Source: Paludibacter sp. (GTDB lineage Bacteria > Bacteroidota > Bacteroidia > Bacteroidales > Paludibacteraceae). Taken from it: a stretch of DNA of 64,000 nt. The notes below the pieces were generated by a model. It had not been told where the DNA came from, searched no databases, and was given only the letters and a program-made list of their open reading frames with translations. Each line of letters opens with the position of its first letter. Position 1 is the stretch's first letter. Of the stretch, positions 1 through 28,519 are shown piece after piece. Location: positions 1-64,000 of the forward strand of contig JAFLKK010000016.1 of NCBI GenBank assembly GCA_019163375.1. The letters run 5' to 3'. The position numbers were made by a program, and so were the translations under genes.

Positions 1-3000
1 CGGCCGCTGTTATATAACCTGCATTGTGAAGTTTTAGAACTGAGTTGTAAGCATCGGCAGCTTTAACCCACGATTGTGGAGCTGCATCAGCAGCAGTCCA
101 TTCTGCATTGGTAGGAAGACGCCACCCTGGCCCCAACTGAAGTAAACAAGGATCATTTTCTGCTAACCAATCACTGGTTTCATTAATCGAAGTTGCCCAA
201 ACCACCGGAGTACGAGGAGTCACAGGGGTATATTGATAACCCTGACTACGGTTGAACTGCCAGTACCAACCCATCGGTTCTTCGGTGATATCGGTAGCTG
301 AAGCTGCCTGTAAATCAGCTCCCAAATTCTTGGTGATCCAGCACAATGAGGATCCGGTAATATTGGAATTTATAGAATTATACGTTATTGTTTTATTATC
401 TACCGGTGAACCAGAAGCTAATTTATGGATTACAGTAAAAGTAGGACAAATCTTAAAGGTCTGCACTGCAGAATATGAAGTTCCACCAGCATTGGTAGCA
501 TAGGCGCGTACATAATAAGTAGGCCCCTCTATAAGCCCGGTAAGCATATCATTGAAACTACCAACACCAGTTCCTGAGGCCATCTTGTTATCTGTAACGA
601 CAGGCAAACCTGCAGTATTCCAGCACAAGCCACGATCTGTTACTACCGCACCTCCACCATCAGTTACAGTTGCTGACCAATTTGCAGTGGAAGAAGTCAT
701 ATTAGAGAGTACCAGTGAACCAACAGTTGGAGGCACAGGCAAAGCGGTCAAGATTACCTCATTACCATAAGATGTTCCTTGAGAACTTGTTGCATATGCT
801 CTCACAAAATAAGATGTAACCGGAAGCAAACCTATAATATTGCAGGTGAAATCACCAATGCCTCCTGCAGCTGCAACTGCATGGTTTCCAGTAGCAATAG
901 GTCCGGTTGTTGTGCTCCAGCAAACTCCGCGAACAGATACGGATGCACCACCATCACTACTGATATTTCCACCACAAACTGCGGAATTTGAGGTTACCGC
1001 TGTAACAGCTACAGTGGTCAAAGTTGGAGTAGTCAAAGTCGTAAAATTCTCCACACCACCATAAGTAGTTCCTACTGAATTTGTGGCATAAGCTCTAAGA
1101 TAGTATTTTACACCACCAGTCAAGCCTGCAATGTTACTTGTAAAGGCACCTGTACCTCCACTTGCATAAGCCAAGATATTATCTGCAATAGTAGGAAAAT
1201 CACTGGTACTCCAACATACACCACGTGCAGTTATAGTAGCTCCTCCATCACTTAAAACATTACCACCGGTACTTGCCGTTGTGCCGGTAATGCTCACTGG
1301 TTTAGTAGTGGTAATATTACCTAATAGTGGTGTTGTAAAAGTTGCAGGAGTAGCACTGTAACCGGTTCCAATATCACTTTTGGCATAAGCCCAAACATAG
1401 TATTTAGTTGCACCCACTAAGTTATCAATTTTTCCACCTATTGTGGTAGCAAAGTAACCGTTAGAGAGTGTATTATCAGCTTCGGTAGGAATAATTCCGG
1501 TTGTATTCCAACGAACACCACGATCGATAATTGTTCCTCCTTCGGTAGTAATTGTTGCAGCCGTCATGGCTGAGGTTCCTGTAACTGATGATATGGTAAC
1601 AGAACTCAATACAGGAACAGCACCCATTGTGATAAAACTTTGAAGTGTACCGTAAGATGTTCCCTGAAGAGTAACAGCAAAAGACCGTACATAATAAGTT
1701 GTATTTGGTAATAATCCCGTAAGTGTGTTACTAAAACTTGCACTACTACCACTACTGGTCGAAACTTTATTATTAGCAGTAGTTGGGTTTGTTGCTGTAT
1801 TCCAGCACACACCCCATGCAAGAATCTGAGATCCTCCATCATCAGTTATTTCTCCTCCAGTAAGTGCTGAATTACTGGTTATGGAACTTACCTCATTGGT
1901 AGTAAGAATTGCGTTAGAAAGAGTTGTGAAACTTAAAGTATTTCCGTAGCTGGTTCCCAAACTGCTAACTGCATACGAACGAACATAATAAGTTGTACGA
2001 CCATTTAGACCCGTAAGCGTTGCAACATAGCTTCCCGAACCACCCGACGCATCGTCAATATGACTATCATAAGAATAAGGAGGACTAACTGTACTCCAAC
2101 AAGTTCCACGCTTAGTAACGGGCGCTCCTCCTTCACTGGTTATATTACCACCACTTTTTGCGGTATTAAATGTGATTGTATTAACTGCTTTTGTAGTTAG
2201 CGCTGCCAGTGTTGGAGAGGTAAAGCTTATTGGCGAAGCACTATATCCTGTACCCCCACGATTGGTTCCATATGCCCATACATAATATCGGGTACCAGGT
2301 GTCAAGTTCGTAATAGTTCCATTTATAGTAGTACCAATAGTTGCATTGGGAACAGCATTAATCAACGATGGATCAATTCCGGTAGTATTCCAACAAAGTC
2401 CCATATCTGTTAATGCATCTCCCCCATTATCCGTCACAGTTGCAATACCTACTGCAGTATTAATGGTAAGACCCGAAATACTTGGTACACTTAATTTAGG
2501 TACCATTACCTGTGTTGTAAAACTCTTCACATCTCCATTAACTGTACCCACAGTATTAATGGCATATGCCTGCACATAATATTTAGTATTTGGTAATAAT
2601 CCGCTCAGGCTCGTTGTAAAAACACCCGAACCGCCCACAGCAGCGGGAACTTTAGTAAGCGGTGGATTTACTGTGCCCCAATATAATCCCCGTGAAGTTA
2701 CAGCCACTCCACCTTCATCCAACACTTCACCTCCGGCAGTAGCTGTGTTGCTGGTTATTGCGCTTGGAGTCGATGTAGTAATTGTGGGTAGCATCACATC
2801 GGCCGTGGTAAACGAAATTTCACTACCATAAGTCACTCCTACACTATTGGTGGCATACGATCTAACATAATACATTTTATTAGGAACTAAACCGGTCAGC
2901 TTCGCTATAAAACTACCGATTCCGGTGCTTGTATTATCTACTGTTTTGGTTGATAAAGCAATAGTTGGATTTCCATAAAGACTCCAACAAACACCACGTG

Positions 3001-6000
3001 TAAGTATCGGAGATCTGCCGTCATCTGTAATAAGACCACCACTGGTAGCAGTAGTTGTAAGAATGCTGGTAGCAGAAGCCGTACCCGAAAGTGTTGGTAA
3101 TGATGCTGTTTGCAATGTTGTTTCAAGCCCATAAGCTGTTCCAATATTATTGATGGCATAAGACCGTACATAGTATATCGTATTCGGAATTAATCCGGTC
3201 ATATTTCCTACATAACTACCTGTATCTTTGCCACACACAATTTTGCTATCTTTAGTTGTAGGATTTGACACAGTACTCCAGCAAATTCCCCGAGAAGTTA
3301 CCAGATCTCCTCCATCACTGGTTACTCTACCGGCACCAATGGCACTAACACCGGTAACCGAACTTGCAACTGTTGGGGCAAGTATAGGTGATGTAGGGAA
3401 TAAAGACATGTTAACCTGATTCCCGTAACCTGTTCCTGCACTGTTAGTTGCATAAGCCCTTACATAATAAGTAGTACTGGATTTTAAATTTAGAATATTA
3501 CTTACAAAAATTCCAGTACCGGCGCCATCAACTGTTTGAGCAACAGACACAGTATCGGGGTTGAAGTTTGCAATATTACTCCATCTTACTCCACGTGAAG
3601 TTACTGAAGCACCTCCGTTACTGGTTATTTCACCACCCGTAAGAATAGAATTGCTTGATGTACTTGAAGCATAAGTAGTAGAAAGTATTGGAACAGATGC
3701 CGGTGTTGTAAAAGTAGTTTCATCACCGTATGCTAAACCTAAATCATTAACAGCATAAGCACGTACATAGTAAGTTGTCAGAGGTGATAAACCTACGATT
3801 TTGCTCGTAAAAGAAGAACCATATCCCTGACTTGTTTTAGTAAATAATCCAACAGTAGGGTTTGGACCTACGCTCCAACAAACACCCCTATCGGAAACTG
3901 TCGACTGTCCGGTATTGACTATAGTACCACCACTCATGGCTGTGTAACCGGTAGCGCTTGCCCCAATTGGAACTGTAGCAAGAGTAGGAACACCTACGGT
4001 GGTAAAACTTACCTCATTTCCATAAGCAATACCTACTATATTCTGGCCATAAGCCCGCATATAGTAAGTCGTATTTTGTTTTAAAAGTGGAGTGGTGCAA
4101 TCAAATTCAGTTCTATAATTTCCGGTATAGTTTCCTGTTTCGGCAGTTTTATTCACAACAACCGTATCCGGTTTAAAGTTAGGAAATTCACTCCAAACAA
4201 CACCTCTGGTAGTGACAGGAGCTCCACCATCATTATTGATGTATCCACCCGCAGTAACAGTTGTATTCCAACGAACTATTTTTGTGGCTTTAGTAGTAAT
4301 GCTGGCAAAATCGGGCGGACTTGTAGTAAAACTAACCTGATTACCATAACTGGTACCTGCAATACTGCTTGCATAAGCACGTACATAATACTTTGTGCTT
4401 GCAACCAAAAAAGTCAATTTACTTACAAAGCTTCCCTTATCACCTCCATCAATTGTTTTGTTGGGAGATGAAATTTCAGGAACGAAATCGGGAGTTGTGC
4501 TCCATATGACTCCTCTGGAACTAATATAGGCCCCACCATCATCGGTTATATCGCCCCCACTACCGGCAGTATTGCTGGTTTGAGAAGATGCGTATACAGT
4601 GGTAAGTGTAGCGAGTTTAGGAGTTATAAAACTAACTTCGTTTCCATAAGCAACTCCAACACTATTAATTACATAAGCACGTACATAATATATTGTAGCC
4701 GGAGTAAGACCACTCATATCTGCGGTGAAATTTCCTGTAAAATAGCCGGTTTGTGCAGTTTTATTGGCAGTAACTGTCGAAGGATCAAAGTTCGGACTAA
4801 TACTCCAAACTAAACCTCGGGTAGTAACCATTGCACCTCCATCGCTGGAAATATTACCACCTACTCTGGCACTTGTGGAAGAATTAAGAGTTGGAACACC
4901 TGTGGTCAGGGTTGGAATTTCGGGAGGCATTGTGGTCATACTTTCAGTATTTCCATATGCAACCCCGACGCTATTGGTTGCATAAGCCCGCACATAATAT
5001 GTAGTGCTTCCCATTAAACCCGTCATGGTATGAATAAAACTACCGGTTCCTGTGCCAGCCGTCGTATGCCCATCAGCAACAGTTGGGTTTTCGGTAATAC
5101 TCCAACACAAACCACTTTTTGTAACCGTCGCTCCACCGTCGTTTGTAATATTGCCTTCGCCAATAGCTGTAGTTCTCAGAACCGTTGCAATGGGAGGAGT
5201 AGTTGTAGTAACCGTAGCTAATCTGGGCGTTGTGAAACTGGATTCATTATCGGCATAAGCAGTTCCGGCACTATTAACTGCAAATGCTTTGACATAATAA
5301 GTTGTTCCGGTACTTAACCCCGTAATGGTAATATCAAAAGTTCCGGTACCTGCTTTAGAAACCCTGTTTGAGAATACAGTTGACGGATCAAAATTTGGAG
5401 ATATGCTCCAACAAATACCCACTGATGTAATAATACCTCCACCATTGCTCGATACAATACCACCACTGGGAGCACTTACACCATCAGATCCACTGGTAGT
5501 TGGTTTTGTAGTAAGTGTAGCTAAAACAGGTGGCTTTGTTGTGAAAATCTGTTCATTACCATAGGCAGTTCCTGCGTTATTGGTAGCGTATGCTCTGATA
5601 TAATAGGTAGTATTTCCCAGTAATCCGGTAATACTATTAATAAATTCTCCAATACCGGTTCCAATGGTTGTATGCGTATCGGTTAGCGTAGGACTTCCCA
5701 CTGTATTCCAGCATATTCCGCTGGAAATTACCGGAACACCACCATCTTTTTCGATAAATCCACCACTTACAACAGAAGAACTGGTTATTGCAGTTGCGAC
5801 AGTTGTAGTAAGTGTTGGTGTTGTAAATGTAGAGAAGCTAAGTTCGTTTCCGTATGAAATGCCTTCGCTATTTACAGCAAATGCTCTTATGTAATATTTC
5901 GTTGTAGGTGTTAAGTCGATGATATCAACGTAAAAACTCCCACTTCCTTCACCTGCAAATATATAATTATCAGCTATTGTTGGGGTAGCAGAAGTGCTCC

Positions 6001-9000
6001 AACATACTCCACGAAGTGTTACATTTGCTCCACCATTACTAGATATAAAACCACCACTTCTGGCCGTTGTGCCGCCGACATTTGTAACTGTAGTTGTAGT
6101 AAGCGTAGGCAGAACCGGTGGTGCCGAAATAAAAGCTACTTCATCACCGTATGATGTACCCGCACTATTGATAGCATAAGCCCTCACATAATATCGGGTA
6201 CTACCCATCAAATCAATCATTTTACTTGTAAAATTTCCTGATCCAATGCCATTACTAACGTGATTATCATTGATAGTTGGACCGTTCAATGTACTCCAGC
6301 AAATTCCACGAGTGCTGTTTGGCTCACCACCATTATCAGTGATAGTTCCACCACTTGTAGCCGAAGTACTGGCAATGGCAGTTACTGCATTGGTTTTAAG
6401 GGTAGCCAAGGATGCTGGTCCTGTGAAAAAGCTCACCGTATTACCATAAGCAACACTGGTGCCATTTAACGTCACACCATTAGCTGCATAGGCTCTCACA
6501 TAATAAGTAGTATTAGCTAACAAGCCGGTCATATTACTTGTAAAACTTCCGGTGCCAGTACCTTCTTTTGTATTAGCACTATTAATTTCGGGAGCACTTG
6601 TGTAAAGACTCCAGCAAATTCCGCGTGAAGTTACCGGCATGCGTCCATCATTGTCAATATTTCCACCGGAAACGGCAGTAGTACTGGTTACACCGCTTAC
6701 CGGATTAGTAATAAGTGTAGGTTGAGTAGCAGTGATAAAAGTGTATTGATTTCCATATGCTGTACCTTTACTATTTGCCGCGTAAGCTCTAACGTAATAA
6801 GTTGTATTTGGTAATAGTCCTGTCATACTACTTGCAAAAACACCAAGTCCATCACTTGTAATAGCCTCTGAAGTTCTACGGTCCTCGCGAGTAGGATATT
6901 GATTGGTACTCCAGCAAATTCCTTTTGCTACAAGAGTAGCTTCAGTATTGCTTACTACCTCTCCACCACTGACAGCAGTTGTTCCCGTAATATTCGTTAC
7001 CGAAGCAGTAACCAGATTGGCCAATTGAGTTGTTGAAAATATACTCTCATCCGTGTAAGTAATTCCTTTACTATTTGCAGCATATCCATACACATAATAA
7101 GTTGTACCTTCCGTCAACCCAGTTAATTTAATATTATAGGTTCCTACGTCAGTGCTTTCATTAAAAGGAGCTGCAATATCATCCAAAGTTAGTCTATCCG
7201 TAGAAATTATTATCCCACGTGCAGTTACAGGTGCCCCACCATTACTACTTATTGTAAAATTAACCCCGGCTGAAATATTTGTAATATCTGTTACATTTAA
7301 TGCAGAAGAACTAAAGATTGGCTTAGTTACAGGCATAGTATTAAACTGAACAAGATCACCATAGGTCTTACCTACACTATTAACAGCATAAGCTCTTACA
7401 TAATAAGTAGTGTTTCCCAACAAATTGGTAAGCGCAACAGGCACACTACCTTCTGTTGTAGCATCAACAGTTTTTATTGCTGCAACATCATCCTTGGGAT
7501 CAAACAAATTACTCCAAATAATACCACGTTCTGTAACCGGAGCTCCACCGGTACTAACAAGATTACTTCCGGTGGCTGCAGTTTTATTGGTAATATTACT
7601 TGCATCGATAGTGGTAATAATTGGTGCAGTTGGTAACAGCAAAAATGTATAATCATTTCCATAAACAGTACCCACCTCGTTAGTAGCATAGGCTCTTAAA
7701 TGATAAGTAACATTTGGCGTGAGATTAGTCATCTCACTTGCAAATTGCCCGGTACCAGTACCGTTACGGGTATATCTGCTATGTCCATCACCAATTGCCG
7801 GATCTACCAGTGTACTCCAACATACTCCACGATCGGTAACCAACGACCTTCCGTCATCTGTGACATCACCTCCCGCATTGGCACTTAAGCTTACAAAAGA
7901 AGAAACCGGAATGGTAACAACAGTGGGATAATCAATAGTTGCTAAACTATCCAGATTACCATAAGAAATACCATGACTATTGACTGCGTATGCACGCAAA
8001 TAATAAACTGTATTTGGTGTTAAGCCTGAAAGATAACTGGAAAAAGCACCGGTACCTGCACCTGTTACAGACTGAGCCGTTTTTGTGGGGAGATCAACGG
8101 TTGGGTTCTTGGTGGTACTCCAACAAACTCCTCGTATCGAAATAGTTGCAGAACCAGAATTGGTGATTTCACCACCACTTCCTGCTGAGGTTCTATTAAC
8201 ACCTGTGGGTGGAGTAGTGACTAAAACAACATACGAAGTAGTAACAAAACTTGTAATACTACTGTAATTTGTGCCGGCCTTATTGGTGGCGTAACCCTTC
8301 ACGTAATAAGTAATACCTGATAATAAACCGTTGATAGTACTCGAGTACTTGCCAATGTCTGACACATTCACCGTTGTAGAAGGCACCTTTGTGAATGTCA
8401 CATTATCCTGACTCCACATAATTCCCCGTTCCAAAACAGGTGCTCCACCATTATTAAGAATCACAACGTCACCTACAGCCGATACATCTCCAATACTACT
8501 CATCTGAATATCAGACGAATTAAGAACAGGAGCCACCGCAGCCGGAGTGGTAAAACTTACCACATTTCCATAGGCAGTTCCATAGGCATTAACGGCATAA
8601 GCCTGAACATAATAGGTTGTCAATTCCAATAAACCGGTAAGTGTACTTGGAAATGGACCAACACCTGAACCGTCATGCGTAACAATTTTGTTTGCATCTG
8701 CCTGCGGATCGGTGGTGGTACTCCATACTATTCCTCTGGCGGTGATTTGCGCACCACCGTCACTTACAATATTACCACCACTCACCGTGGTAGTATTACT
8801 AATATCCGTTGCCGCCGAAGTAATAATCGTAGGTACTGTAACTGTAGTTTTGAAAACCTTGTCTTCTCCGTAAGTCACTCCTGCACTGGTTGTGGCAAAA
8901 GCGCGAACATGATAGGTAGTATTGGGTTGTAAATCTGTTAGATTACACGCAAAACTACCTACACCCGAACCCGGAAGAGTGGTTGTTGTACCCGAGACAA

Positions 9001-9718: not shown

Positions 9719-9777
9719 AATCTTCTATTCAAGTTATTCATACATCTTAATTTGAAAACAAATACAATAGAATTAGT

Positions 9778-12700
9778 CTATTGTAATTTCTTCATAATCG
9801 CATCAATTTGTAGTTGCTGATTATTCATCATATCCTTCAAATTTTTAATCTCCAGTTGTTGTTGACTTATCTCATTTTGTTGCTCCTTGATGGCCTGTAT
9901 CAGAACACCGGTCAACTGAGTATAATCAACTTTTAAAAAGCCATCCTTACCCAAATTTACCATTTCGGGAAAAACGGTCTGTAGTTCTTGAGCAATAACA
10001 CCAATTTTAGGTCCTGTGGCATATTTCTTTTGATTTTTATACTCGAAACGTACTCCCCGAATCTGATCAATTGATTTAAGTACCGTTGTTAATGTTTCTA
10101 TATTTGTTTTCAACCTTCGATCCGATGGCGTGTAAAAGTTTCCATTAACGGTAAGATCTTTTGCAATAATGGCATTTTCGGTGGCATCAAAACTTAATCC
10201 TGCTCCTACTCCACCGCCATTACTTATGCTGAATGTTTGCATTTTCAAATTTGTAGTAGCAGTATGATTACCTAAATTGTCAGTACCTACCGCAACCCAA
10301 GTTGTTCCATTATAGGTATAAAGTCGGTTATCGACAGTGGAATAAAATGTATCGCCGGTTTGACCTGTTGCAGGTAAGGTTCCCCCATTCTGAGTTGTTG
10401 CCGTTTTTGCATCAACATATTTTTTAGTGGCAGCTTCCTGGTCGGCTGTAGGATCTAAAAGATTCGTTATTTTAAAGTTATTTGTTCCATTGCCCAATGA
10501 TATATTTGCTGTAGCAGCGCCAAAACCACTTATCGGAATTGAGCTCTTTGTAGTGGCTGTCGCAATCCCGGTTACACTTCCAACAAAGAACTGCCCATCG
10601 GCTAGAGCATTACCCACCGGCTGCCATGCTGAACCGGTGTAAACATAAAGTCGATTGTCTGTAGTTGAATAAAAGGTATCGCCCATTTGTCCAACAGCAG
10701 GCAGTGTACCACCGGTTTGAGTTGAAACAGATTTGGCATCTACGTATTTTTTTGTTGCTGCTTCCTGATCGGCTGTTGGATCGGCAAGGTTCGATATTTT
10801 AAAATTAGTGGTTCCATTACCCAATAAAATTCCAGCTGTAGCAGCACCAAAATCACTTATTGAGACTGTGTTTTTAGCTACAGGAGTAGCAAGATTCGTA
10901 GCGCTACCGACAAAGATAGAACCTGTTGGTAAAGCCAAAGAGCCGGCAACCGATGTCTTTGTGTCTACATATTTTTTGGTTGCCGCTTCCTGATCGTTTG
11001 TAGGATCTGCCAGATTCGTAATTTTATAATTCAATGTTCCGTTTCCAAATGCCACATCGGCATCGGCTGCTGCAAATCCGCTTAGTGCAATTGTATTTTT
11101 AGCTGTGGCAGTAGCAATACCCGAAGCATTTCCAACATATAATTGCCCGTTTGCTAACGAATTGTCTACAGGTACCCAAGAGGTTCCATTGTAAACATAT
11201 AGGCGATTGTCGGTGGTAGAATAGTAAGTATCAGAAACCTGCTGACCGCTCGAAGGTAATGTTCCTCCACTTTGAGTGGAAGCCGTTTTTGTATCCACAT
11301 ATTTTTTCGTGGCAGCTTCCTGATCGTTGGTTGGGTCTGCTAAGTTGGTAATTTTAAAATTAGATGTTCCATTTCCTAATGAAATATCTGTAGTGGCAAT
11401 TCCAAAATCACTAATTGGAATATTACTTTTAGGCACATCAGTTGCCTGATTGGAAGCATTACCAACATAAATAGATCCGGCTGAAAGCGTAAGAGCTCCG
11501 GGCCCGGCAATCTTTGAATCGACATAATTTTTTGTGGCTGCATCTTGTGCAAACAACGGTTCCGCCAAAAAGCTAATGTTGTACTGCGTTGCAGCATCGC
11601 CCATATTAATGGTAGCAGTTGCTTTGCCAAATGAACTTACCGGAATAGCACTGGTTGATGTTGACACTGCTTTTCCTGTCGCATTCCCTAGAAACATTTT
11701 CCCTGTAGCCAGAGCAAGACTGGTGGACGGAGTAGCGAATAAATCATCAATATATTTTTTTGTGGCTGCATCGTTATCAGCAAGTGGAGTAGCTAAATTA
11801 GTCAATTTGTAACTCCCAAAAGATATGTCAGCAGCTGCAGTTCCAAAACCGCTTAATGGGATAGCCGTTTTTAAAGTAGAAATGGCTTTCCCTGAGGCAT
11901 TTCCTAAAAACATGCTTTCTGAAGCAAGATTAAGACTGCTAGCATCAATCGTTTTAGAATCAACATAGTTTTTCGTTGCAACATCCTGGGCAGTTGCAGG
12001 ATCCGCCACATTTGTCAGTTTAAATCCTCCAAATGCAACATCAGTGGCAGCTGCACCAAAACCGCTGATAGCAATTGTGTTTTTTGCCACAGCTCCGGCT
12101 TTTCCGCTTGCATTCCCTAATAGTAAACTACCTGTTGCCAGAGTAATACTTACAGGATCAATAATTCTGTTATCGACATAGCTTTTTGTAGCTGCATCTT
12201 GTGCCACAAGGGGATTTGCAAGGTTCACAATTTTATTATTTGTTGTTCCATCTCCTAATGAAATATTAGCTGTTGCAGCTCCAAAACCGCTGATAGGAAT
12301 GGTGCTCTTAGCTGTTGCAACAGCTTTATTAGTAATATTCCCAACAAAAAAGTTGCCTGAAGCTAAAGTCAGTAAAGCCGTAGGATTTGTGAACAAAGCA
12401 TCCACATAATTTTTTGTAGCAGCATCCTGTGCACCTGTCGGATTGGCAAGATTGACAACCCTGTTATTAGTCGTTCCATCTCCGAATGAAACGTTATCGG
12501 TAGGATTGCCAAAACCACTAAGGGGAATATGTGTCTTATCTAATTTATCATCTGTTATTGCTTTATTCGCAACGGTAAGTTTACCACTATTGTTGATTGT
12601 AGCATCACCTGACATTGTAACCGGAGTAGCTACATTCGTAGAATTACCTACATACATCTGTCCATTTGGCAATATATTATCCGCCGGCATCCATACAGTA

Positions 12701-13536
12701 CCGTTATATACATAAAGCTTGTGATCAGAAGTATTGTAAAACAGACTACCTTCAGTAACCGTAACGGTTGCAGGATCAGGATTAAAAATACCACTAGGTA
12801 TAGAACCATTCGTCGAAATTTTAAGCCAAATGGTACCATTGTAAATATAGGAGGAATTATCTTCCGTATTAAAAAACATATCCCCTTTTGTAGCAGGATT
12901 TGTGAATTCTGTACTGGTTCCACTGGGCACCGTTCCACTTCCAACAGCCATCCATTGAGTACCATTATAAATATAGAGTTTCTTTTCGGTGGTATTATAG
13001 AAGCCTGCTCCAATATTTGGACTAGCAGGCATATCAGCAGCAGTACCAGAAGTAAATTTGGAAACATCATCATTAATACTCATAATTGCTGCATTTTGAA
13101 CGGCAACCATCAAAGCTGTATTTGGATAATTTGGATCAAATTTTGCTAAGCCGTATCCATTCGATGTTGGTCGATAGAGAGTTCCCACTCCGGGTACAGT
13201 TGGATATATATTCCATTCATCAATTGCACCTGAAAGGTATGTAACATCAAACTCGTTTATATCAGAAGATGAGTAGCCTGCAGTAGTAACAATATCTATT
13301 CGATACATCTTTCCATCAGAATCTACAACAACATCCCCTTTCTCAATCTCATTTGCAAAGTGTCCACCATCATCTTGATTAAAAGTTCCTTGAATTGTAT
13401 GGGTAGAATTAGTTGTTGTTGGATTTTCACTAAACCCGGTAAAGGTAAATCTACCATTAAGTAAAACTTGGGCTTCAGCATTAAATCCACAAAAAACAAA
13501 CATCAAAATCAATGCATAACAATTAAACATTTTCAT
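9778..13536 (-). CDS. Secreted tail-fibre-like repeat protein with C-terminal S74 self-cleaving chaperone domain
   Basis: This 1252-aa protein has a signal peptide (MKMFNCYALILMFVFCG, cleavage after NAEA). Residues about 150-300 hold three short units of the type LYIYNGT.W. Residues about 300-1045 hold nine units of about 65-110 aa, each ending in A(A)TKxYVD, a style typical of phage tail fibres. The last 115 residues are an intramolecular chaperone/peptidase S74 domain beginning SDRRLK, with Ser1138 and Lys1143 in the spacing of the catalytic dyad of endosialidase-type chaperones. A GVIAQELQ..FPE motif follows, then a C-terminal coiled coil. S74 domains trimerise the fibre and then cut themselves off; that the same happens here, outside the cell, is inference. 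The gene sits between two other repeat-protein genes with gaps of 59 and 48 bp, so co-transcription is likely. Confidence 0.88.
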   Translation of the reverse strand: MKMFNCYALILMFVFCGFNAEAQVLLNGRFTFTGFSENPTTTNSTHTIQGTFNQDDGGHFANEIEKGDVVVDSDGKMYRIDIVTTAGYSSSDINEFDVTYLSGAIDEWNIYPTVPGVGTLYRPTSNGYGLAKFDPNYPNTALMVAVQNAAIMSINDDVSKFTSGTAADMPASPNIGAGFYNTTEKKLYIYNGTQWMAVGSGTVPSGTSTEFTNPATKGDMFFNTEDNSSYIYNGTIWLKISTNGSIPSGIFNPDPATVTVTEGSLFYNTSDHKLYVYNGTVWMPADNILPNGQMYVGNSTNVATPVTMSGDATINNSGKLTVANKAITDDKLDKTHIPLSGFGNPTDNVSFGDGTTNNRVVNLANPTGAQDAATKNYVDALFTNPTALLTLASGNFFVGNITNKAVATAKSTIPISGFGAATANISLGDGTTNNKIVNLANPLVAQDAATKSYVDNRIIDPVSITLATGSLLLGNASGKAGAVAKNTIAISGFGAAATDVAFGGFKLTNVADPATAQDVATKNYVDSKTIDASSLNLASESMFLGNASGKAISTLKTAIPLSGFGTAAADISFGSYKLTNLATPLADNDAATKKYIDDLFATPSTSLALATGKMFLGNATGKAVSTSTSAIPVSSFGKATATINMGDAATQYNISFLAEPLFAQDAATKNYVDSKIAGPGALTLSAGSIYVGNASNQATDVPKSNIPISDFGIATTDISLGNGTSNFKITNLADPTNDQEAATKKYVDTKTASTQSGGTLPSSGQQVSDTYYSTTDNRLYVYNGTSWVPVDNSLANGQLYVGNASGIATATAKNTIALSGFAAADADVAFGNGTLNYKITNLADPTNDQEAATKKYVDTKTSVAGSLALPTGSIFVGSATNLATPVAKNTVSISDFGAATAGILLGNGTTNFKISNLADPTADQEAATKKYVDAKSVSTQTGGTLPAVGQMGDTFYSTTDNRLYVYTGSAWQPVGNALADGQFFVGSVTGIATATTKSSIPISGFGAATANISLGNGTNNFKITNLLDPTADQEAATKKYVDAKTATTQNGGTLPATGQTGDTFYSTVDNRLYTYNGTTWVAVGTDNLGNHTATTNLKMQTFSISNGGGVGAGLSFDATENAIIAKDLTVNGNFYTPSDRRLKTNIETLTTVLKSIDQIRGVRFEYKNQKKYATGPKIGVIAQELQTVFPEMVNLGKDGFLKVDYTQLTGVLIQAIKEQQNEISQQQLEIKNLKDMMNNQQLQIDAIMKKLQ
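10412..12410 (-). repeat. Nine tandem coding repeats ending in ATKxYVD
   Basis: The codons for the ATK(K/N/S)Y(V/I)D motif recur at about 12405, 12176, 11962, 11752, 11522, 11297, 10969, 10738 and 10412. The spacing is 210-230 bp in most of the array and about 325 bp where an extra LYVYNGT.W insert is present. Each unit also carries a (F/L)(V/L)GNA..KA segment and a (I/V)(P/S)(I/L)S.FG segment. Confidence 0.8.
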
Positions 13537-13543
13537 ATATAAA

Positions 13544-13548
13544 CCTCC
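13544..13548 (-). promoter_or_regulatory. Shine-Dalgarno-like GGAGG before the S74 gene
   Basis: GGAGG lies 7 nt before the ATG at 13536. Bacteroidota genes usually lack a strong Shine-Dalgarno sequence, so this canonical site stands out and fixes the start of the 1252-aa protein. Confidence 0.55.
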
Positions 13549-13584
13549 AATATTTTGTGAAAAATAATTGTATATTGATTAAAT

Positions 13585-16500
13585 TTAAAATCCTAATGCA
13601 ATAATCCATTTTTGAACAGCTGATGGAAATTGAAACATAGATTTCATTGTCTTGTTGGTTGGATCATCTAGTTTATATGTTGTCGTACCTGCAATTGGCA
13701 AAAATGTAGATTTTCCTGGCGTAAGACCTTTATTATAAGCAGATACAGAAACCGGTAATCGAGCATTTGTATAATCGTCATTTATATTATCTGTATAAAT
13801 AATGTCTACATTAATATATTGTGCAGCACCAAGTGCAAATCCTAGTAAGGTATAATCTCCAAAAATTTGTACGGACTGTATTAACACTCCTGTTGGCACA
13901 CTGATTTCGAACAGATTAGTAAATCCAGAGGCGGTACCATCGTCTTTCCTTCCTGCCTTTTGTATGACTGTAACACCCACTCCAGTTGCAGTGATAGTCA
14001 CATTTGTATTAGCACTTGGATGGTAAGTCTGAAGTGAGCTCCCTCCACCACCTCCCGTTGCAGGAGCAACCCATTCAGAAGTTCCGTCGGCTTTAGAAGT
14101 TAAAACTTGTGCTGCAGTAGTTGGGGGAGTTGGTATCTTACTCAGTTTTGTAAGATCTGCAGGTACCATCAAACCGGCATTTGTAGTTGTGGCTACAGGA
14201 ATAGTAGCAGCAGTTCCAGTGCTTGAATTTACTAAACCTTGAGTTGCAGAAGCTGTATATGTAATATTTGTGCCGGTGGGTGGTGCTACCCAAGTGGCAG
14301 CAGTACCCGCTCCATTAACCGTTAATACTTTGTTTGCATCTGACACACCGGCAATATTCGCAAACTTATCTAATTTTGATTTGTCGGTATTTATCATTAA
14401 CCCGGCTGTTGAAGATGTTGCTGCCGGAATGGTAGCAGCAATTCCGGTGCTGGAGTTTACAACACCTTGTGTCGCTGAAGTTGTATAAGTAAGATCTGTA
14501 GCCGCACCTCCTCCACCGGTTCCATTTGCTACAGTAGTTATACGTCCTTGAGCATCAACTGTAATATTAGCAGAAGTATAACTACCAGGAGTTACAGCTG
14601 TATTTGCCAACGCAATTGTAGGATTGTTTGACACACCATCACCATTGGTAACATTAATGCCAGTACCTGAAACTATTGTACGGGTTGCTACCGCTCCGGT
14701 TCCTGTTCTGGCAATCAATCCTGTTGTTGATAGTCCCACTAAAGCAGTAAGATTAGGATCGGTAACGGCAGCTGCAATTGTAATACTTGCAGTTCCGTCA
14801 AAAGCAACTCCATTAATGGTTCTTGGCGTGGTTAGTTTCGTTGCAGTTGCAGCTGATGCCACATTCTTACTTGCATCTGCCGTATTATCAACAAGATTTA
14901 ATCCTACATTTGTCTTTGTAATTCCGGTTGGATTATTTATCACCGGGTTTGTAAGTGTTTTATTCGTCAAGGTTTGCGTAGCAGTTAAGCCAACAACTTG
15001 CTCTGAAATATTAGCCACATCGTAAGTCGCTTTATTCATATCACCGGTTCCCGTTGCCGATCCCCAGGTAAATCCGCCACTCCCATTCGATGTTAATATT
15101 TGTCCGTTAGTCCCATTTGCACTAATATTGCTCAGTTTTGTTGCAGTAATGGTCTGATTAGCAATATCAGTAGCAGTAATAGTTCCATCTAGAATCTGAG
15201 TTGTTCCAACTTTACCCGTACCTATGCTAGCAGCAAATGAACCCATACCTGAACCAGTTACATCACCTGTAAGCGTTATCGTTTGGTCGCCTGTATTTAC
15301 TCCTGTTCCGGTAACATTTGTACCATTTATATATCCTGTTGCCGCTACAGAAGTTGGGGTGATAGCTCCCAATGAAAGTGTAATGGCCGGAGTGGCTGTT
15401 GAAGTTGCAGTACCACTAATACCATTAGCTGTTACTACTGAAACGCCGGTTACCGTTCCGGTTCCACCTCCGGTTGCACTCAGGGTGGTTCCTGTAAAAC
15501 TTAATCCTGCCCCTAAGCTAATCTCACTCAATGAAGTACCTGAAGCTCCTGACCCCAACAACTTACCGGCAGTCATAGCCTGCATTTTAGAATAAGTTAC
15601 TTTGTTAGCACCAATAGTTGCAGTAATTGCCCCTGTACCCGACCCTGTCATATCACCCGATAGTGTTATTGTCTGATCACCCGTATTAACTCCTGTGGTT
15701 GTTCCACTAATATTAGGCGCCGAAATGGTTCCTGTGGCTGTAATGTTGCCGGTCGATATATTTCCGGTAGTTGTTATATTTCCTGCCGTATTTATAGATG
15801 TTGGGGTGATAGCTCCCAATCCTAAGGTAATCAGAGGCGATGTAGTTGAACTTCCCACGGAGGCAGTAATACCACCATTTGCAATTACTGATACGCCGGT
15901 TACTGTTCCACCACCTGATGGAGCCGGCTGCCATAATGTAGCTGTACCTCCCGCGTTTACCGTCAGCACATTATTACCATTAGCAGAACTGTAAGCTGGA
16001 ACTTTAGTATCCACATACGTTTTAACTGCATTTTCAGTTGTATACTTTGTACTCGACGCCCCTGCTAAAGTTCCATCATTACTTTTATTCGTTTTATCCT
16101 CTTTTAATAATAAAGCGTTTATGGTAGCCGTACTCAATGGTTTTAATAAGTCGGTTGTATTATCAACATTTGATAAGCTGATATCAGCTTTTGTCAAAGT
16201 GATGTTCCCAATTTTTGAGTTTACCGATAGAACAGGTGAAGGTGCTGAGATTAATTCTTTCCAGTTACTTAAAATAGAAGCTGGTGTTTGAGACAAAACA
16301 TAGTTTTTCCCATCTCCGGTTATGATAGCTATACTTCCAACCACTGCGCCACTCAATGCAGTCATATCAGAAGCTAGTGGCAATACATCCACCGAGGAAA
16401 AAGAAATAGCCGGAATCTGATTGGAAGGAATCTTTCCGGTGCCGTCGAGTGTTGCTACTCCGTTATTAGCAGCTTTTTCCGACAAATCTATTTTTGTATT

Positions 16501-19500
16501 TAGGGCATTTTGTGTAAGCGTGCTGATAGGCTTGGCCAAATCACTTGTATTGCTTATCAGGTCTAATCCAAGATTTGCCTTAACCTGTGTAGGAGTCAAT
16601 TGTTGAAGTGTAGTTGAAGTAGCAGCAGCAATAAAGTTACCGGCTGTGTAAGACGTAATTCCTGTTCCGCCCTTAGTAACAGGAAGACTCGTAATCAGAG
16701 GTTCTTTTAGCAAAAGGCCTGGCACTGTAGGACTTGTACCCGTACCGCCTAAATCGCCTGTCATTTGAATGGTACCTAAAGTCGTTGAATTTGCCATTGG
16801 AACACCGCCTGCTGCAAGTACAGCAGCATCTACTCTTGTATCTACATAGGTTTTAATTGCATTAACCGTTGGATATTTTACATTTGATGTTGCATCTGTA
16901 GCAACATTAGTACTTTTGTTGGCTAGATTTTCTTTCAGAAGAAGAGCAGCTTGCGTTGCATCACTAATAACCTTCTCAGCATCAGTCGTATTTTGCACTT
17001 TATCTAAGCCTAGATCAACCTTAACTTCAGAAGGTGTTCTTTGCTGTAAAGTAGTTGAATTGCCGGCGTTTATATAGTTACCCGCTGTGTAGGAACCAAT
17101 TCCTGTTCCACCATTTGCAACGGGCAAAATACCGCTTATTGAACTTGCTGCAAGTAATTCCCAGGTGCCATTACCACTCAGATAAGTTGCAATAGAAGGT
17201 GTACCTGTTAAACTCATCGCATTTAAAGGAATATTTGATGTTCCATACCGTGCAGGGGGAATTGTTCCCGAAGTCAGGTTATCAGCATTTGTTTGATCAA
17301 AATTCTTTACATTTTCGAGCGATAATAACGTTTTTGTCTGAATTGAATTTAGTGCTGTCGGCACTGCACTTGCGCCGCTGTTATTTCCTAAAATAGTATT
17401 GTTGCCTATTGGAGCCAAACCAATCGTAGCATCACCGGTTAAACTACCACCGGCTAAACCCGACCCCGCAATAACACCTGTAATATCTCCAATTGTTCCG
17501 GTGATATTAAGTGCTCCACTTCCGTCAATGGCTAAACCTGATCCAACTTTAACACCACCTAAAGTTGTAGTCGAAGACATCGGCAGGGTATAATTCGTTA
17601 AACCATCAAGTTTATTTTTATCTGTAGCTGAAAAGAGGCCCGGATCGGTGCCGCTGGCAATTGGCAAAACAGATAATAATGATTTATTAACCCATTTCAA
17701 CCCATTCCAAATCAAAGCATCCTTATCTTGTTTTGCAGTAATTGAAACATCCAACAAATTATCTATATTAGCATCAGTAATACCATAAGCAGCAATAGTA
17801 GTTGGATTTGTACCTGAAATAACACGCCCCTGAGTATCTGTGGTAACAGATCTGTAAGTACTTGAAATTCCAACTGCTGGTAAACTTAATGGAGTAGTAT
17901 TTCCATCACCGTTTAATGTACCATCGTGCGATACAGCCGTCAGTCCTCCTGAAGCAGATGTTGAAATTTCGCCTTGCAATTCTTCCAGAGCTGCCTGTAC
18001 ATTGGTCGAGACTAATGATCCTGTTGGAGTAACCGGCACAGTAGAAGCTATTTGGTCGCCAGTGTTTGTTCCAGTTATGCCTGCAAGTGTTGATAACTGA
18101 GCATCGGTTACATATCTCTTATTTGAAGAATCTGCAATATCTGCAGTTGTAGCATCAGTTCCTGCAGTTACAAGCCCTTTTGTATCATAAGTAATTTTTG
18201 TTTTTGTTGCTCCTGTTATTGCCGCATTACCGGTCATTTTTGATGTAAGGCTTGTCGTATTCACATCAATTAAAGTCTTCAAGCCTTCCAATACTGTCTG
18301 AACATTTGTTCCGGTTACACCGGAAATTGCAGTTGTAGAAATACCCGAAGCCACGGAACTTCCTCCCGTAGCCGGAGCACCCCATGTACCATCACCTCTT
18401 AAATAGGTAGTTGCATCTCCATTACCTATAATAGCATTCACCGGTACAGTTGCACTCGCAAACCTTCCGGCTGGGATTGTCCCTGAAATTAAATTCGTTG
18501 CATTTGTTTGATCTACATCTTTCACATTTCCCAGTCCTACATCACTTTTAGTAAGTGCCAACATTGTTTTAATGTTGTTCATTGAAAGTGCCGTAGGATA
18601 CCCATAACTTGTAGAACTATTTCCAATAAGTGTATTTCCGGATATGGGAGCTATTTTCGTCAAAAGTAGACCACCATCATTTATTCCGACATTTGCAGTT
18701 CCACTATTTGTTGTCGATGATAATCCGCCAAAGGTAGTAACAGCAGTTAAACCACTTCCGGTTCCTGATCCCGAAGCAGGATCAGCCCAAACAAAGCTAC
18801 CGCCACCATTTGTTGTAAGAACCTGACCACTTGTTCCATTTGTACTTATTCCAGCTAATTTAAGAGGAGTTATGCCTTGGTTTGAGATACCTAACGGACT
18901 CGTTGAAGCTCCACTTCCGGTTAGTGTTGCATCGTGGGTCACAATCCCACTACCACTACCCGAAGATCCAAGTCCGGCCAATATACCTGCTAAATCTACA
19001 TGACTGTTTCTGGGACCGGAAATGGAAAGCACAGTTCCTGCAAGACTTAAAGATTGATTAAGATCGCTTAAGCTTACAGGGTACTTTCCGTTAATTGACA
19101 AATTATATGCAGCATCAAAAGTTAGAAATGGATCTGAACTTCCACCACCTGTTCCCGTTGAAAGTTTACTATCAACATACGATTTTGTTGCAGCATCCTG
19201 ACTCGATGTGGGATCGGCCAAATTGGTTATTCTGAAGTTGGTAAACCCATTACCCATCGAAATATTTGAATTAGGATAAGCAAAACCACTTAAAGGAATG
19301 GTATTTTTTGAAGTTGAAATAGCCTTGCCGTTCACATCACCAACATAAAATGACCCATTCTCTAATAATAATGGACCGGTTCCGGAACCGGCATCGGTAA
19401 TACCATAGCCCGCCAATGTTGTTGGTTTGTTTGTCAAATCTTTAAAACTACCTGTAAATGCAACAGTTGCAAGCGATGATGAACTTGCTTTAAGATCAAG

Positions 19501-19977
19501 TTGAGCAGTAATTTTATCTGACGACCAAGTGCTGGAACTTAAAACACGTGTATCCTGAATAACGGTACCTGAATTAGATCCGGCATTCGCAGCAAATAGT
19601 GCGTAAGGCACACTTAACAATTCACTTTCACCAACAACGGAATAATCACTTCCTCCCGTAGGGTCGGTTTCCGTTTTAATATAATGAGATCCTTTTGACC
19701 AATCAATAGCTGCAAAGGTTCCGGTTAAAGCAGTTCCGTTACCAATCGCAAAACTAACGAGACCATTATCATTGGTTATTGCATCATGCAATTCAACATA
19801 AACAGGAGTTTTATCCTGCAAAATGGTGATGATCATACTTACCTTCTTGTTTGTAATCAAAACTTTATTATTATTTCTGATTACAGCCTGATAGCTCATT
19901 TTCTTAGGAGCTTGAGCAAATACACTTGCAATGATGATCGTAAATATTAAATAAGTGTATAATTTCTTCATATTCAT
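13585..19977 (-). CDS. 2130-aa secreted phage-tail-fibre-like repeat protein
   Basis: The protein begins with a signal peptide (MNMKKLYTYLIFTIIIASVFA) and a roughly 110-aa head domain found in many Bacteroidota surface fibres. That domain is recognisable from MSYQAVIRNN, TNDNGLVSFAIGNG, TETDPTGGSDY and ELLSVPYALFA. The long middle (about 150-1960) is Gly/Thr/Ser/Asn-rich and consists of interleaved tail-fibre motifs: YLRGDGTW-type, NTGDQTITL.GD.TGSG, GLxxVxNTTD...KPIS, LPVANGGTGI and KYVTDAQL. The last 165 aa form a distinct predicted beta domain starting near SLQTYHPS and ending WIIALGF. There is no S74 domain and no obvious T9SS tail. The family style suggests a trimeric fibre; ligand and exact export route are unknown. 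Met3 at 19971 is an alternative start. Confidence 0.85.
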   Translation of the reverse strand: MNMKKLYTYLIFTIIIASVFAQAPKKMSYQAVIRNNNKVLITNKKVSMIITILQDKTPVYVELHDAITNDNGLVSFAIGNGTALTGTFAAIDWSKGSHYIKTETDPTGGSDYSVVGESELLSVPYALFAANAGSNSGTVIQDTRVLSSSTWSSDKITAQLDLKASSSSLATVAFTGSFKDLTNKPTTLAGYGITDAGSGTGPLLLENGSFYVGDVNGKAISTSKNTIPLSGFAYPNSNISMGNGFTNFRITNLADPTSSQDAATKSYVDSKLSTGTGGGSSDPFLTFDAAYNLSINGKYPVSLSDLNQSLSLAGTVLSISGPRNSHVDLAGILAGLGSSGSGSGIVTHDATLTGSGASTSPLGISNQGITPLKLAGISTNGTSGQVLTTNGGGSFVWADPASGSGTGSGLTAVTTFGGLSSTTNSGTANVGINDGGLLLTKIAPISGNTLIGNSSTSYGYPTALSMNNIKTMLALTKSDVGLGNVKDVDQTNATNLISGTIPAGRFASATVPVNAIIGNGDATTYLRGDGTWGAPATGGSSVASGISTTAISGVTGTNVQTVLEGLKTLIDVNTTSLTSKMTGNAAITGATKTKITYDTKGLVTAGTDATTADIADSSNKRYVTDAQLSTLAGITGTNTGDQIASTVPVTPTGSLVSTNVQAALEELQGEISTSASGGLTAVSHDGTLNGDGNTTPLSLPAVGISSTYRSVTTDTQGRVISGTNPTTIAAYGITDANIDNLLDVSITAKQDKDALIWNGLKWVNKSLLSVLPIASGTDPGLFSATDKNKLDGLTNYTLPMSSTTTLGGVKVGSGLAIDGSGALNITGTIGDITGVIAGSGLAGGSLTGDATIGLAPIGNNTILGNNSGASAVPTALNSIQTKTLLSLENVKNFDQTNADNLTSGTIPPARYGTSNIPLNAMSLTGTPSIATYLSGNGTWELLAASSISGILPVANGGTGIGSYTAGNYINAGNSTTLQQRTPSEVKVDLGLDKVQNTTDAEKVISDATQAALLLKENLANKSTNVATDATSNVKYPTVNAIKTYVDTRVDAAVLAAGGVPMANSTTLGTIQMTGDLGGTGTSPTVPGLLLKEPLITSLPVTKGGTGITSYTAGNFIAAATSTTLQQLTPTQVKANLGLDLISNTSDLAKPISTLTQNALNTKIDLSEKAANNGVATLDGTGKIPSNQIPAISFSSVDVLPLASDMTALSGAVVGSIAIITGDGKNYVLSQTPASILSNWKELISAPSPVLSVNSKIGNITLTKADISLSNVDNTTDLLKPLSTATINALLLKEDKTNKSNDGTLAGASSTKYTTENAVKTYVDTKVPAYSSANGNNVLTVNAGGTATLWQPAPSGGGTVTGVSVIANGGITASVGSSTTSPLITLGLGAITPTSINTAGNITTTGNISTGNITATGTISAPNISGTTTGVNTGDQTITLSGDMTGSGTGAITATIGANKVTYSKMQAMTAGKLLGSGASGTSLSEISLGAGLSFTGTTLSATGGGTGTVTGVSVVTANGISGTATSTATPAITLSLGAITPTSVAATGYINGTNVTGTGVNTGDQTITLTGDVTGSGMGSFAASIGTGKVGTTQILDGTITATDIANQTITATKLSNISANGTNGQILTSNGSGGFTWGSATGTGDMNKATYDVANISEQVVGLTATQTLTNKTLTNPVINNPTGITKTNVGLNLVDNTADASKNVASAATATKLTTPRTINGVAFDGTASITIAAAVTDPNLTALVGLSTTGLIARTGTGAVATRTIVSGTGINVTNGDGVSNNPTIALANTAVTPGSYTSANITVDAQGRITTVANGTGGGGAATDLTYTTSATQGVVNSSTGIAATIPAATSSTAGLMINTDKSKLDKFANIAGVSDANKVLTVNGAGTAATWVAPPTGTNITYTASATQGLVNSSTGTAATIPVATTTNAGLMVPADLTKLSKIPTPPTTAAQVLTSKADGTSEWVAPATGGGGGSSLQTYHPSANTNVTITATGVGVTVIQKAGRKDDGTASGFTNLFEISVPTGVLIQSVQIFGDYTLLGFALGAAQYINVDIIYTDNINDDYTNARLPVSVSAYNKGLTPGKSTFLPIAGTTTYKLDDPTNKTMKSMFQFPSAVQKWIIALGF

Positions 19978-20034
19978 TATTTTTGAATAGTTATATATCT
20001 ATATCTCTTTCAGATATTATCTTTTTAGATTATT

Positions 20035-20046
20035 GTTTTCGAAAAC
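20035..20046. promoter_or_regulatory. 12-bp perfect palindrome
   Basis: GTTTTCGAAAAC is a perfect palindrome about 60-70 bp upstream of the 2130-aa gene. It could be a dimeric regulator site, but nothing in the sequence shows which regulator, and one such palindrome in AT-rich DNA can arise by chance. Confidence 0.25.
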
Positions 20047-20101
20047 AGAATAAAACATTCATATTCCCACTTTTAGATAGTTCGAAAATTAATTATTTAT
20101 C

Positions 20102-20137
20102 TGGTAGGCACGCAAAGAGTATAACTACCATTTGCGT
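20102..20137 (-). promoter_or_regulatory. Two interlocked inverted repeats in the leader of the 2130-aa gene
   Basis: TGGTAG (20102-20107) pairs with CTACCA (20125-20130), and ACGCAAA (20110-20116) pairs with TTTGCGT (20131-20137). The halves alternate, so the two hairpins exclude each other in RNA. The connecting loops (none and 2 nt) look too short for a true pseudoknot. The element lies in the 318-bp gap between the T9SS gene and the 2130-aa gene. It may be an RNA switch, a DNA operator or chance. Confidence 0.35.
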
Positions 20138-20295
20138 ACTTAATGGAGTTTCCAATATCATGATAAAAAAAAATCAAGAATTTAGGATTAGCCTAGAAGG
20201 GCAATTCAAAATTTAAGGCTACATGTGGATCAGGTTAACTTGGAATTATATATCAATACAGACTATTATTATCGCTTTCAATCAAAAAAACTTTA

Positions 20296-20820
20296 TTATC
20301 TTGTGTTTTGAATAATTTTAAACACCTTGGTTTTTCGTGGCATTGTTTCATTTCGTTTTTGTATCACCTTAAGAGTATATGTCGACGAAATATACCCTAC
20401 CATCGATATCATCGTTTTTTTCTTTTCCACACTTCCTGTTGTCAATAGTTTACCTACAGCATCGTAAAGTGTATACTCGATCGTTTCATCAATATAATTT
20501 TCGACATGCAATGTTAGAAAATCAACCACAGGATTAGGATATGCAGAGCAGGTCAATGTCAAGTCTAATGCATCTCGTGGATCCGTTTCAACAGTTATTT
20601 CGTAAGGCTGCTGCACACCTTGTGCAACTGAATAGTTTCCGTCGAAATTGGTAGTATAAGCTATTTGTCCAACAGTATAATCTACAAAACCACCGCTCCC
20701 CACAGCCCTACCACCCGAAGTCGTAATTGCTTCTTGTGCATGTAAACCGGTGAATCCAAAACCTAAAACAAGCAAAACACTTGCTTTCATTATTATTTGT
20801 AACATTTCCACTCTTATCAT
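20296..20820 (-). CDS. Small secreted protein with T9SS type A C-terminal sorting domain
   Basis: The product is 174 aa. A signal peptide ends near GLHAQ. A short Gly-rich segment follows (SGGRAVGSGGFVDYTVGQI, then VAQGVQQPYEI), a pattern common in Bacteroidota proteins of this class. The last 80 aa are a type A Por/T9SS sorting domain: AYPNPVVDFLTLHV, then YTLYDAVGKLL and a terminal beta strand. The domain directs export through the T9SS and surface attachment. The protein has almost no cargo beyond this, so it may act as an anchor or accessory for the long fibre genes downstream; that is inference. Start candidates are 20820, 20805 and 20790; the last gives the most compact signal peptide. 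Confidence 0.8.
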   Translation of the reverse strand: MIRVEMLQIIMKASVLLVLGFGFTGLHAQEAITTSGGRAVGSGGFVDYTVGQIAYTTNFDGNYSVAQGVQQPYEITVETDPRDALDLTLTCSAYPNPVVDFLTLHVENYIDETIEYTLYDAVGKLLTTGSVEKKKTMISMVGYISSTYTLKVIQKRNETMPRKTKVFKIIQNTR

Positions 20821-21085: not shown

Positions 21086-21093
21086 CAAAGATA
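21086..21093 (-). promoter_or_regulatory. Predicted -7 promoter element (TATCTTTG) for the surface operon
   Basis: TATCTTTG on the minus strand matches the Bacteroidota -7 consensus TAnnTTTG. No clear -33 TTTG is seen at the usual spacing. A start near 21079 would give a leader of about 260-290 nt before the T9SS-sorted protein. The TGTAGC cluster lies just upstream. Confidence 0.5.
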
Positions 21094-21967: not shown

Positions 21968-22180
21968 TTATTTTTTTGCAGCATCTTTGCAACAAGATTT
22001 TGATTCGGCTTTTTTTGCTTCGTCTTTGCAACAAGCTTTTTTGTCTTTAGCTTCGCCTTTGCAGCAAGCTTTAGTTTCAGTTTTAGCTTTTGCTTTAGCT
22101 TTTGCCGGTGCAGTTTGAGCAGATACAGAAGCAAATGATACGAAAATCGCAACCAGCGATAGAACAAGGACTTTTTTCAT
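21968..22180 (-). CDS. Small secreted Lys-rich protein with three CC motifs
   Basis: The product is 70 aa. A clear signal peptide (MKKVLVLSLVAIFVSFASVSA, ending AQ) is followed by a short mature region of about 48 residues that is almost only Lys, Ala, Glu and Cys. It holds three cysteine pairs in repeated contexts: KACCKGEAK, KACCKDEAK and KSCCKDAAK. Paired cysteines in a charged, unstructured exported peptide suggest periplasmic binding of soft metals or a thiol buffer. I do not recognise a named family, so this is inference. The metal-efflux operon on the same strand, starting 300 bp upstream, fits a metal role. Its own terminator follows. Confidence 0.75.
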   Translation of the reverse strand: MKKVLVLSLVAIFVSFASVSAQTAPAKAKAKAKTETKACCKGEAKDKKACCKDEAKKAESKSCCKDAAKK

Positions 22181-28422: not shown

Positions 28423-28519
28423 AAAATATAAATAATAAAAGTAATTTGATTGAATAGTATGCAACAAAAACGTGCAAACAAAAAAACTTTGCTTGCAAAA
28501 CATATTACAAAATAAATAA

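Follow-up and report, generated by a model that had tools for sequence, protein, structure and literature searches.

A small T9SS-sorted protein is encoded beside MAT-like fibre genes in a probable surface-fibre locus of Paludibacter and across its class

Genes for small T9SS-sorted proteins, of the type here called p4, are found next to genes for long fibre proteins in genomes throughout the sampled class; the N-terminal domain of these fibres (MAT_N-like domain) is related to that of the mosaic adhesive trimer (MAT) fibres of Bdellovibrio. The window, i.e. the whole stretch of 64,000 nucleotides analyzed here, contains one such pair, p4 and p3, followed by two further genes, p2 and p1 (Table 1). 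The locus may be read, with moderate probability, as encoding MAT-type adhesive surface fibres together with a dedicated T9SS partner, p4, which would act as their dock.

Table 1. Position of the cluster genes, and of their main domains, within the window
Feature	Position	Strand	Description
p4	20296..20820	minus	174 aa; signal peptide, N-domain p4N, type-A T9SS sorting domain
p4N (small N-domain of p4)	~residues 28-76, 20590-20736	minus	placed by p4N domain search
Type-A T9SS sorting domain of p4	residues 94-164	minus	PF18962, TIGR04183
p3 fibre protein	13585..19977	minus	2130 aa; signal peptide, MAT_N-like domain, long repetitive shaft, C-terminal tip
MAT_N-like N-domain of p3	19579..19914	minus	NF053851, E 1.1e-9, 38.2 bits
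C-terminal tip of p3	13588..14052	minus	predicted beta-sandwich, low to middling confidence
p2 fibre protein	9778..13536	minus	1252 aa; phage-fibre-like repeats, C-terminal S74
S74 domain of p2	9958-10125	minus	SDRRLK (= SDxxxK) at residue 1138
p1 giant FN3-repeat protein	2..9718	minus	at least 3239 aa, TTG start, no stop; cut within FISUMP/Lcl_C-like C-terminal region

The four minus-strand open reading frames announced in a preliminary description of this DNA are all in place, and each product begins, as claimed there, with a signal peptide, as judged by eye. In the order p4-p3-p2-p1, the genes are separated by 318, 48 and 59 bp. Base 1 of the window is also the first base of the contig: p1 is therefore cut, and its left neighbour is unreadable in this assembly. 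A scan for sigma-70 sites gave chance-level results (44 found, 44.4 expected), and terminator-like sites numbered 10, where 8.4 were expected. One Bacteroidota-type -7-like motif is located upstream of p4, at 21093, while none is present in the three intergenic gaps.

The identification of p4 as a small T9SS-sorted protein, made in the preliminary description, holds: its sorting domain exceeds both curated type-A cut-offs (PF18962, 31.5 bits with a cut-off of 27; TIGR04183, 24.5 bits with a cut-off of 23), and the genome is endowed with a T9SS, SprA being matched at 2820 bits. For p3, no Pfam match is found up to E 1. Once the signal peptide is removed, its mature N-terminus matches, over model positions 13-80 of 162, the NCBIfam family NF053851, which describes the N-domain of the Bdellovibrio MAT fibres. 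The score is significant but the cut-off of 60 bits is not reached; p3 is therefore to be regarded as a homologue, by sequence comparison of the N-domain, and not as a formal MAT member. The p3 N-domain model, predicted from a single sequence, is of too low confidence to be used (pLDDT 35.5). The tip was modelled better (pLDDT 66.5, pTM 0.68), with no PDB or viral structure matching it at E <= 0.001; PDB profile searches with tip and N-domain gave no credible match.

MAT_N-like domains are present in 69 of the 119 sampled genomes of the class and in 13 of 30 genomes of the genus of the window, its own included; none of 14 control genomes is matched. SprA is found in 114 of the 119 class genomes, and MAT_N in 68 of these, versus one of the only five SprA-negative genomes (P = 0.16).

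The pairing was evaluated by following all the matches to p4N alone: 56, from 36 of the 119 class genomes. In 43 of them a MAT_N-like gene of the same orientation is met at most 2 kb downstream, versus 0.06 such neighbours expected by chance; 39 of these cases come from gene listings and four (L140, L143, L144, L148) from fetched stretches, with only the start of the fibre gene on the contig in L144 and L148. In four more the MAT_N-like gene is upstream, adjacent in L142, L146 and L185 and about 1.1 kb off in L141; in one (L150) it comes after a type-B gene and a PorP/SprF gene of the same cluster; six matches are cut off by the contig end. No MAT_N gene was seen for the remaining two: one (G142:C126) adjoins a PorP/SprF gene, in the 14 kb read, the other (G187:C184) lies on a short contig, beside a fragment with a lectin-like end. 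When only strong matches are considered (E <= 1e-8, n = 28), 25 are paired and three fall at contig ends. Over the 36 loci measured, the median distance between the p4 stop and the start of the fibre gene is 5 bp, and 32 of these loci fall within 60 bp; the gap found in the window is the longest of the 36. At the genome level, MAT_N occurs in 35 of the 36 genomes with p4, versus 34 of the 83 without (P = 8e-10). Within the genus of the window, seven of 24 further MAT_N matches were opened and p4 is directly upstream in all seven, although in two of these loci the contig starts there, and only the C-terminal part or the sorting domain of p4 is included.

The converse relation is looser. No p4 match is found in 34 of the 69 genomes with MAT_N, and genes other than p4 precede MAT_N in opened loci of at least two genomes (G202, G122). 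Part of the p4-less cases depends on model sensitivity, since a wider p4 model also picks up p4 in L155, and next to each of the three MAT_N genes present in L171. p4 is thus tied to MAT_N far more strictly than MAT_N to p4. What is new in this analysis is that small T9SS cargo proteins and MAT-like fibres are paired class-wide. Among the titles and abstract openings listed by searches of the open-access PMC literature, none describes this pairing.

The sorting domain of p4 is not always of type A. Four p4 proteins (L138, L142, L145, L185) carry a type-B domain, over cut-off, and in all four a PorP/SprF gene, also over cut-off, is located in the cluster. In L138 this gene (3419-4825), fused to an OmpA-like C-terminal domain, is interposed between p4 and the MAT_N fibre gene. 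Type-B p4 still adjoins MAT_N in L138, L142 and L185; L145 is the above-mentioned G142 case. The delivery route of p4 therefore changes, while its MAT_N partner is kept in three of the four. Type-B substrates of Flavobacterium johnsoniae depend on the matching PorP/SprF proteins (PMC12618676), for which an anchoring role is presumed (PMC9143113).

The fibres were characterized on a set of 51 proteins, comprising all stop-codon-bearing MAT_N proteins of the fetched stretches, minus one without a suitable start; the set is a non-random sample, because most stretches were chosen for having p4, and 20 for having no p4 match. NF053851 matches all 51 isolated N-domains (E <= 0.01) and 47 of the 51 full-length proteins (E <= 0.001). 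Beyond the N-domain these proteins are mosaic, with variable tips. Among 25 of the 28 Pfam families found, which are those listed, collagen repeats and Lcl_C each occur in 14 proteins, S74 in 8, Fib_succ_major and phage fibre repeats in 3 each, the YadA head in 2 and a C-type lectin (Lectin_C) in one; S74 and non-S74 tips thus coexist, as in the MAT superfamily. In none of the 51 complete fibres was a T9SS sorting domain detected, either by NCBIfam or by a type-A model of our own, and none is present among the Pfam families listed for them. Searches of p2 and p3 of the window for such a domain, by Pfam and NCBIfam, were equally negative.

In the reading proposed, the sorting domain of p4 would direct it through the T9SS to the surface, where it would be retained, as a type-A protein in the window and as a type-B one, with PorP/SprF, in the variants. 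There the MAT_N-like base of a presumably trimeric p3 would dock onto p4N; p3, having no T9SS signal of its own, would then extend from the docked base outward, with its shaft and an exchangeable, putatively adhesive tip. p2 may be a second fibre, matured by S74, and p1 an FN3 stalk of giant size with a lectin-like C-terminal region, both serving as companion adhesins and probably encoded in the same operon as p4 and p3. Against docking count the unusable model of the p3 N-domain, the MAT_N genomes without p4, the opened loci where another gene precedes MAT_N, the NF053851 score of p3 below the cut-off, and the p4-p3 gap of the window, longer than any other. Bdellovibrio is not known to have a T9SS; its display of MAT fibres indicates that p4 does not answer a universal need.

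The same pairing data, together with the absence of sorting domains from the 51 fibres and with the abutting or overlapping p4 and fibre genes, as expected for co-folding partners, may also be taken to mean that p4 binds the signal-less fibre in the periplasm, and that the T9SS carries both out, p4 being a ticket rather than, or besides, an anchor. This is a rather unlikely alternative: MAT_N genes with no detected p4 exist, Bdellovibrio fibres are not known to use a T9SS, and in two T9SS papers no precedent was found for piggyback export or co-secretion of a CTD-less protein.

In a distance-matrix test on 42 pairs, p4N correlates with MAT_N (r = 0.66) more than the p4 sorting domain does (r = 0.56; partial correlations 0.50 vs 0.31), yet zero lies inside the bootstrap interval for this difference (-0.02 to 0.24): coevolution of p4N and MAT_N is suggested, but is not significant. 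This result leaves some room for p4 and the fibre being co-regulated neighbours used in the same niche, with p4 a separate small surface protein making no contact. Such a view is improbable, as the pairing spans many genera with near-zero gaps, and persists across the change in p4 CTD type.

The gene order of the cluster, which the preliminary description had proposed to look for in other Bacteroidota, is found again, enlarged by a further fibre gene, in G033, G078 and G093, three genomes from a different genus of this family. A gene order restricted to close relatives, named there as a refuting result, is therefore not what is observed. The order here is p4, a MAT_N fibre of 1120-1281 aa (f1), a second fibre of 1797-1826 aa (f2), the S74 fibre and the giant; in all three genomes p4 and f1 overlap by 4 bp. 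The giant of G033 is complete, with 6762 aa. In G078 the S74 fibre gene (L035, 12295-16460) is split into two pieces in different frames, of 342 and 1019 aa, which may reflect decay or an assembly error. In G093 (L043, G093:C2:36000-52400) a further giant FN3/FISUMP-like gene, of at least 4259 aa, lies downstream of the first; the giant thus appears to be duplicated there, in a region with assembly gaps. Long matches to p2 are confined to these three among the 119 other genomes of the family sample; matches of any kind occur in 25 of 120 family genomes and, the long ones apart, are all short. Since the long S74 protein is otherwise absent from the sampled family, the four-gene set is patchy.

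A model of the p3 tip, built from the tips of the window, Arcticibacter and Pedobacter, matches, as a more distant relative, the tip of f2 of G033, G078 and G093 (E 1.5e-10 to 9e-18, 33-57 bits; 6.8 bits for the best of 150 shuffled controls), and no f1 of the same genomes. With its tip found in f2 and MAT_N in f1, p3 of the window appears as a mosaic, formed by an f1-type N-domain on an f2-type tip. This tip is a distinct, conserved type, which also ends a neighbouring fibre in Arcticibacter and in Pedobacter BAL39, as revealed by a scan of named genomes able to detect close relatives only. In both, the fibre with the p3-type tip adjoins an S74 fibre, the best p2 segments being 64 and 55% identical, respectively, while its N-terminus is of another type than MAT_N. 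No p4 was seen within the 23-24 kb examined, and both stretches include a type-B sorting-domain gene with PorP/SprF. Compared with the window, N-domain and T9SS partner thus differ together, and tip and S74 fibre are kept; this is a single contrast. The p3-like fibre of Pedobacter BAL39 (L032, 4768-9957) also features a collagen-like GEKGDKG insert near its N-terminus.

As for the other two genes, the S74 chaperone previously assigned to p2 is evident (PF13884, 62.9 bits with a cut-off of 22) and includes the SDxxxK motif. The FN3 part of p1 is likewise clear (fn3, 131.6 bits), whereas its description as a FISUMP protein is weaker: Pfam gives no PF09603 match in the cut copy of the window, and the copies of two relatives score 17.7 and 27.6 bits, under the cut-off of 33.9. 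No T9SS sorting domain was recognized by eye at the end of the complete p1 of G033. Judged by their domains, p2 is likely a fibre in its own right, matured by S74, and p1 a stalk of giant size. S74 by itself is ordinary in the class, occurring in 80 of 119 genomes. The preliminary description regarded all four proteins as possible parts of one apparatus. What is shown for the set as a whole is neighbourhood; the strongly supported unit is formed by p4 and the MAT_N-type fibre, and p2 and p1 are its variable companions. The genome contains two other S74 genes (L039, L040; G000:C8:1000-40000), amid fibre-like genes; one of them is followed by a Skp-like gene, named by eye, a type-B sorting-domain gene, PorP/SprF and an OmpA/PD40 gene resembling PorE.

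The phage-like features of the locus are largely limited to p2. Its shaft and S74 domain are matched in part by 599 phage records, always over less than 80% of the query, and p2 matches 49 PHROG families, versus 6, weakly, for the p3 shaft. The earlier idea of reused phage fibre parts is modified accordingly: p2 resembles phage fibres, the p3 shaft weakly so, whereas the N-domain of p3, a MAT homologue, does not look like a phage part. The repeats and S74 of p2, and the contig end within the cluster, which leaves its left side unseen, are what may suggest a decayed prophage, or a phage-derived contractile (eCIS-like) particle, of which only the fibre genes are visible. This is highly improbable. 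All four proteins have signal peptides, by eye; none of the 10 open reading frames to the right of the cluster (out of 40 defined mechanically) matches a phage family, one having no match at all; no contractile sheath gene is present in the genome. To the right of the cluster, the readable side, no gene for phage structure, lysis or integration was seen, in agreement with the preliminary description. In G033 the cluster is flanked on both sides by ordinary non-phage genes, named by eye. None of 50,697 phage records matches the p3 tip, and three scans of IMG/VR returned a single contig with a MAT_N domain; in the 6.4 kb of it that were inspected by eye there is an hsdM-like gene, and no gene for a phage structural protein was recognized. 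A phage origin of the whole locus is therefore rejected, given the tip absent from phages, the lack of a sheath, the neighbours and the almost empty IMG/VR result. The general picture of a surface-fibre locus with no signs of a phage, tied to a small T9SS protein, is reinforced by the conserved gene set and by the p4 pairing, surface display being inferred.

Elsewhere in the window, a minus-strand 70-aa open reading frame (21968-22180), with a signal-peptide-like start and repeated Lys/Cys-Cys motifs, may encode a metal-binding secreted peptide; to its right follows an efflux set of the heavy-metal type (CusB-like, 22854-24029). A single minus-strand frame of 1486 aa (24043-28503) joins an RND pump (ACR_tran) to an outer-membrane factor (OEP). 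A further minus-strand gene (55624-58152) combines DUF5723, thrombospondin type 3 repeats and OmpA, and contains a 96-bp tandem repeat (56045-56388).

Several known systems resemble the cluster or its relatives. The MAT fibres of Bdellovibrio bacteriovorus (PMC10769870) share with p3-type proteins a signal peptide, a homologous N-domain and a long body, and with the MAT_N relatives tips that vary at the C-terminus, S74 and C-type-lectin folds being among them. p3 differs in scoring below the NF053851 cut-off, over a part of the model only, and in being paired with a T9SS cargo; neither "Bacteroidetes" nor "Bacteroidota" appears in the main text of that report. Type-B adhesins with PorP/SprF, such as SprB-SprF and PG1035-PorP, are described as surface-anchored sorting-domain proteins genetically linked to PorP/SprF (PMC9143113, PMC12618676); the same linkage is observed around the type-B variants of p4, as well as in the loci of Arcticibacter and Pedobacter. 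Unlike in the SprB-SprF type, p4 is a small T9SS protein, and the long fibre, in which no T9SS signal could be recognized, is encoded separately. Phage tail fibres and endosialidase-type spikes share with p2 the fibre repeats and an S74 domain with SDxxxK, but p2 has a signal peptide, no phage genes around, and is conserved beside a secreted surface protein. Finally, the Legionella collagen-like adhesin Lcl is resembled by the MAT_N relatives with Lcl_C tips and by those with collagen repeats, each 14 of 51; p3 of the window, in contrast, matches neither in Pfam.

According to Caulton et al. 2024 (PMC10769870), it is still to be established which surface element the conserved MAT N-domain binds. 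p4, encoded beside the homologous domain class-wide, is a direct candidate for this missing partner. If p4 docks or exports the fibres, it would account for the display, by Bacteroidota, of fibres devoid of a T9SS signal, and MAT-like adhesins would be extended from a predatory bacterium to a major phylum. A broader view, in which p4 is a general adaptor both exporting and docking tip-swapping MAT-like fibres, as a two-part adhesin system of Bacteroidota, is offered as a doubtful, tentative one; if true, the T9SS would deliver proteins which carry no T9SS signal.
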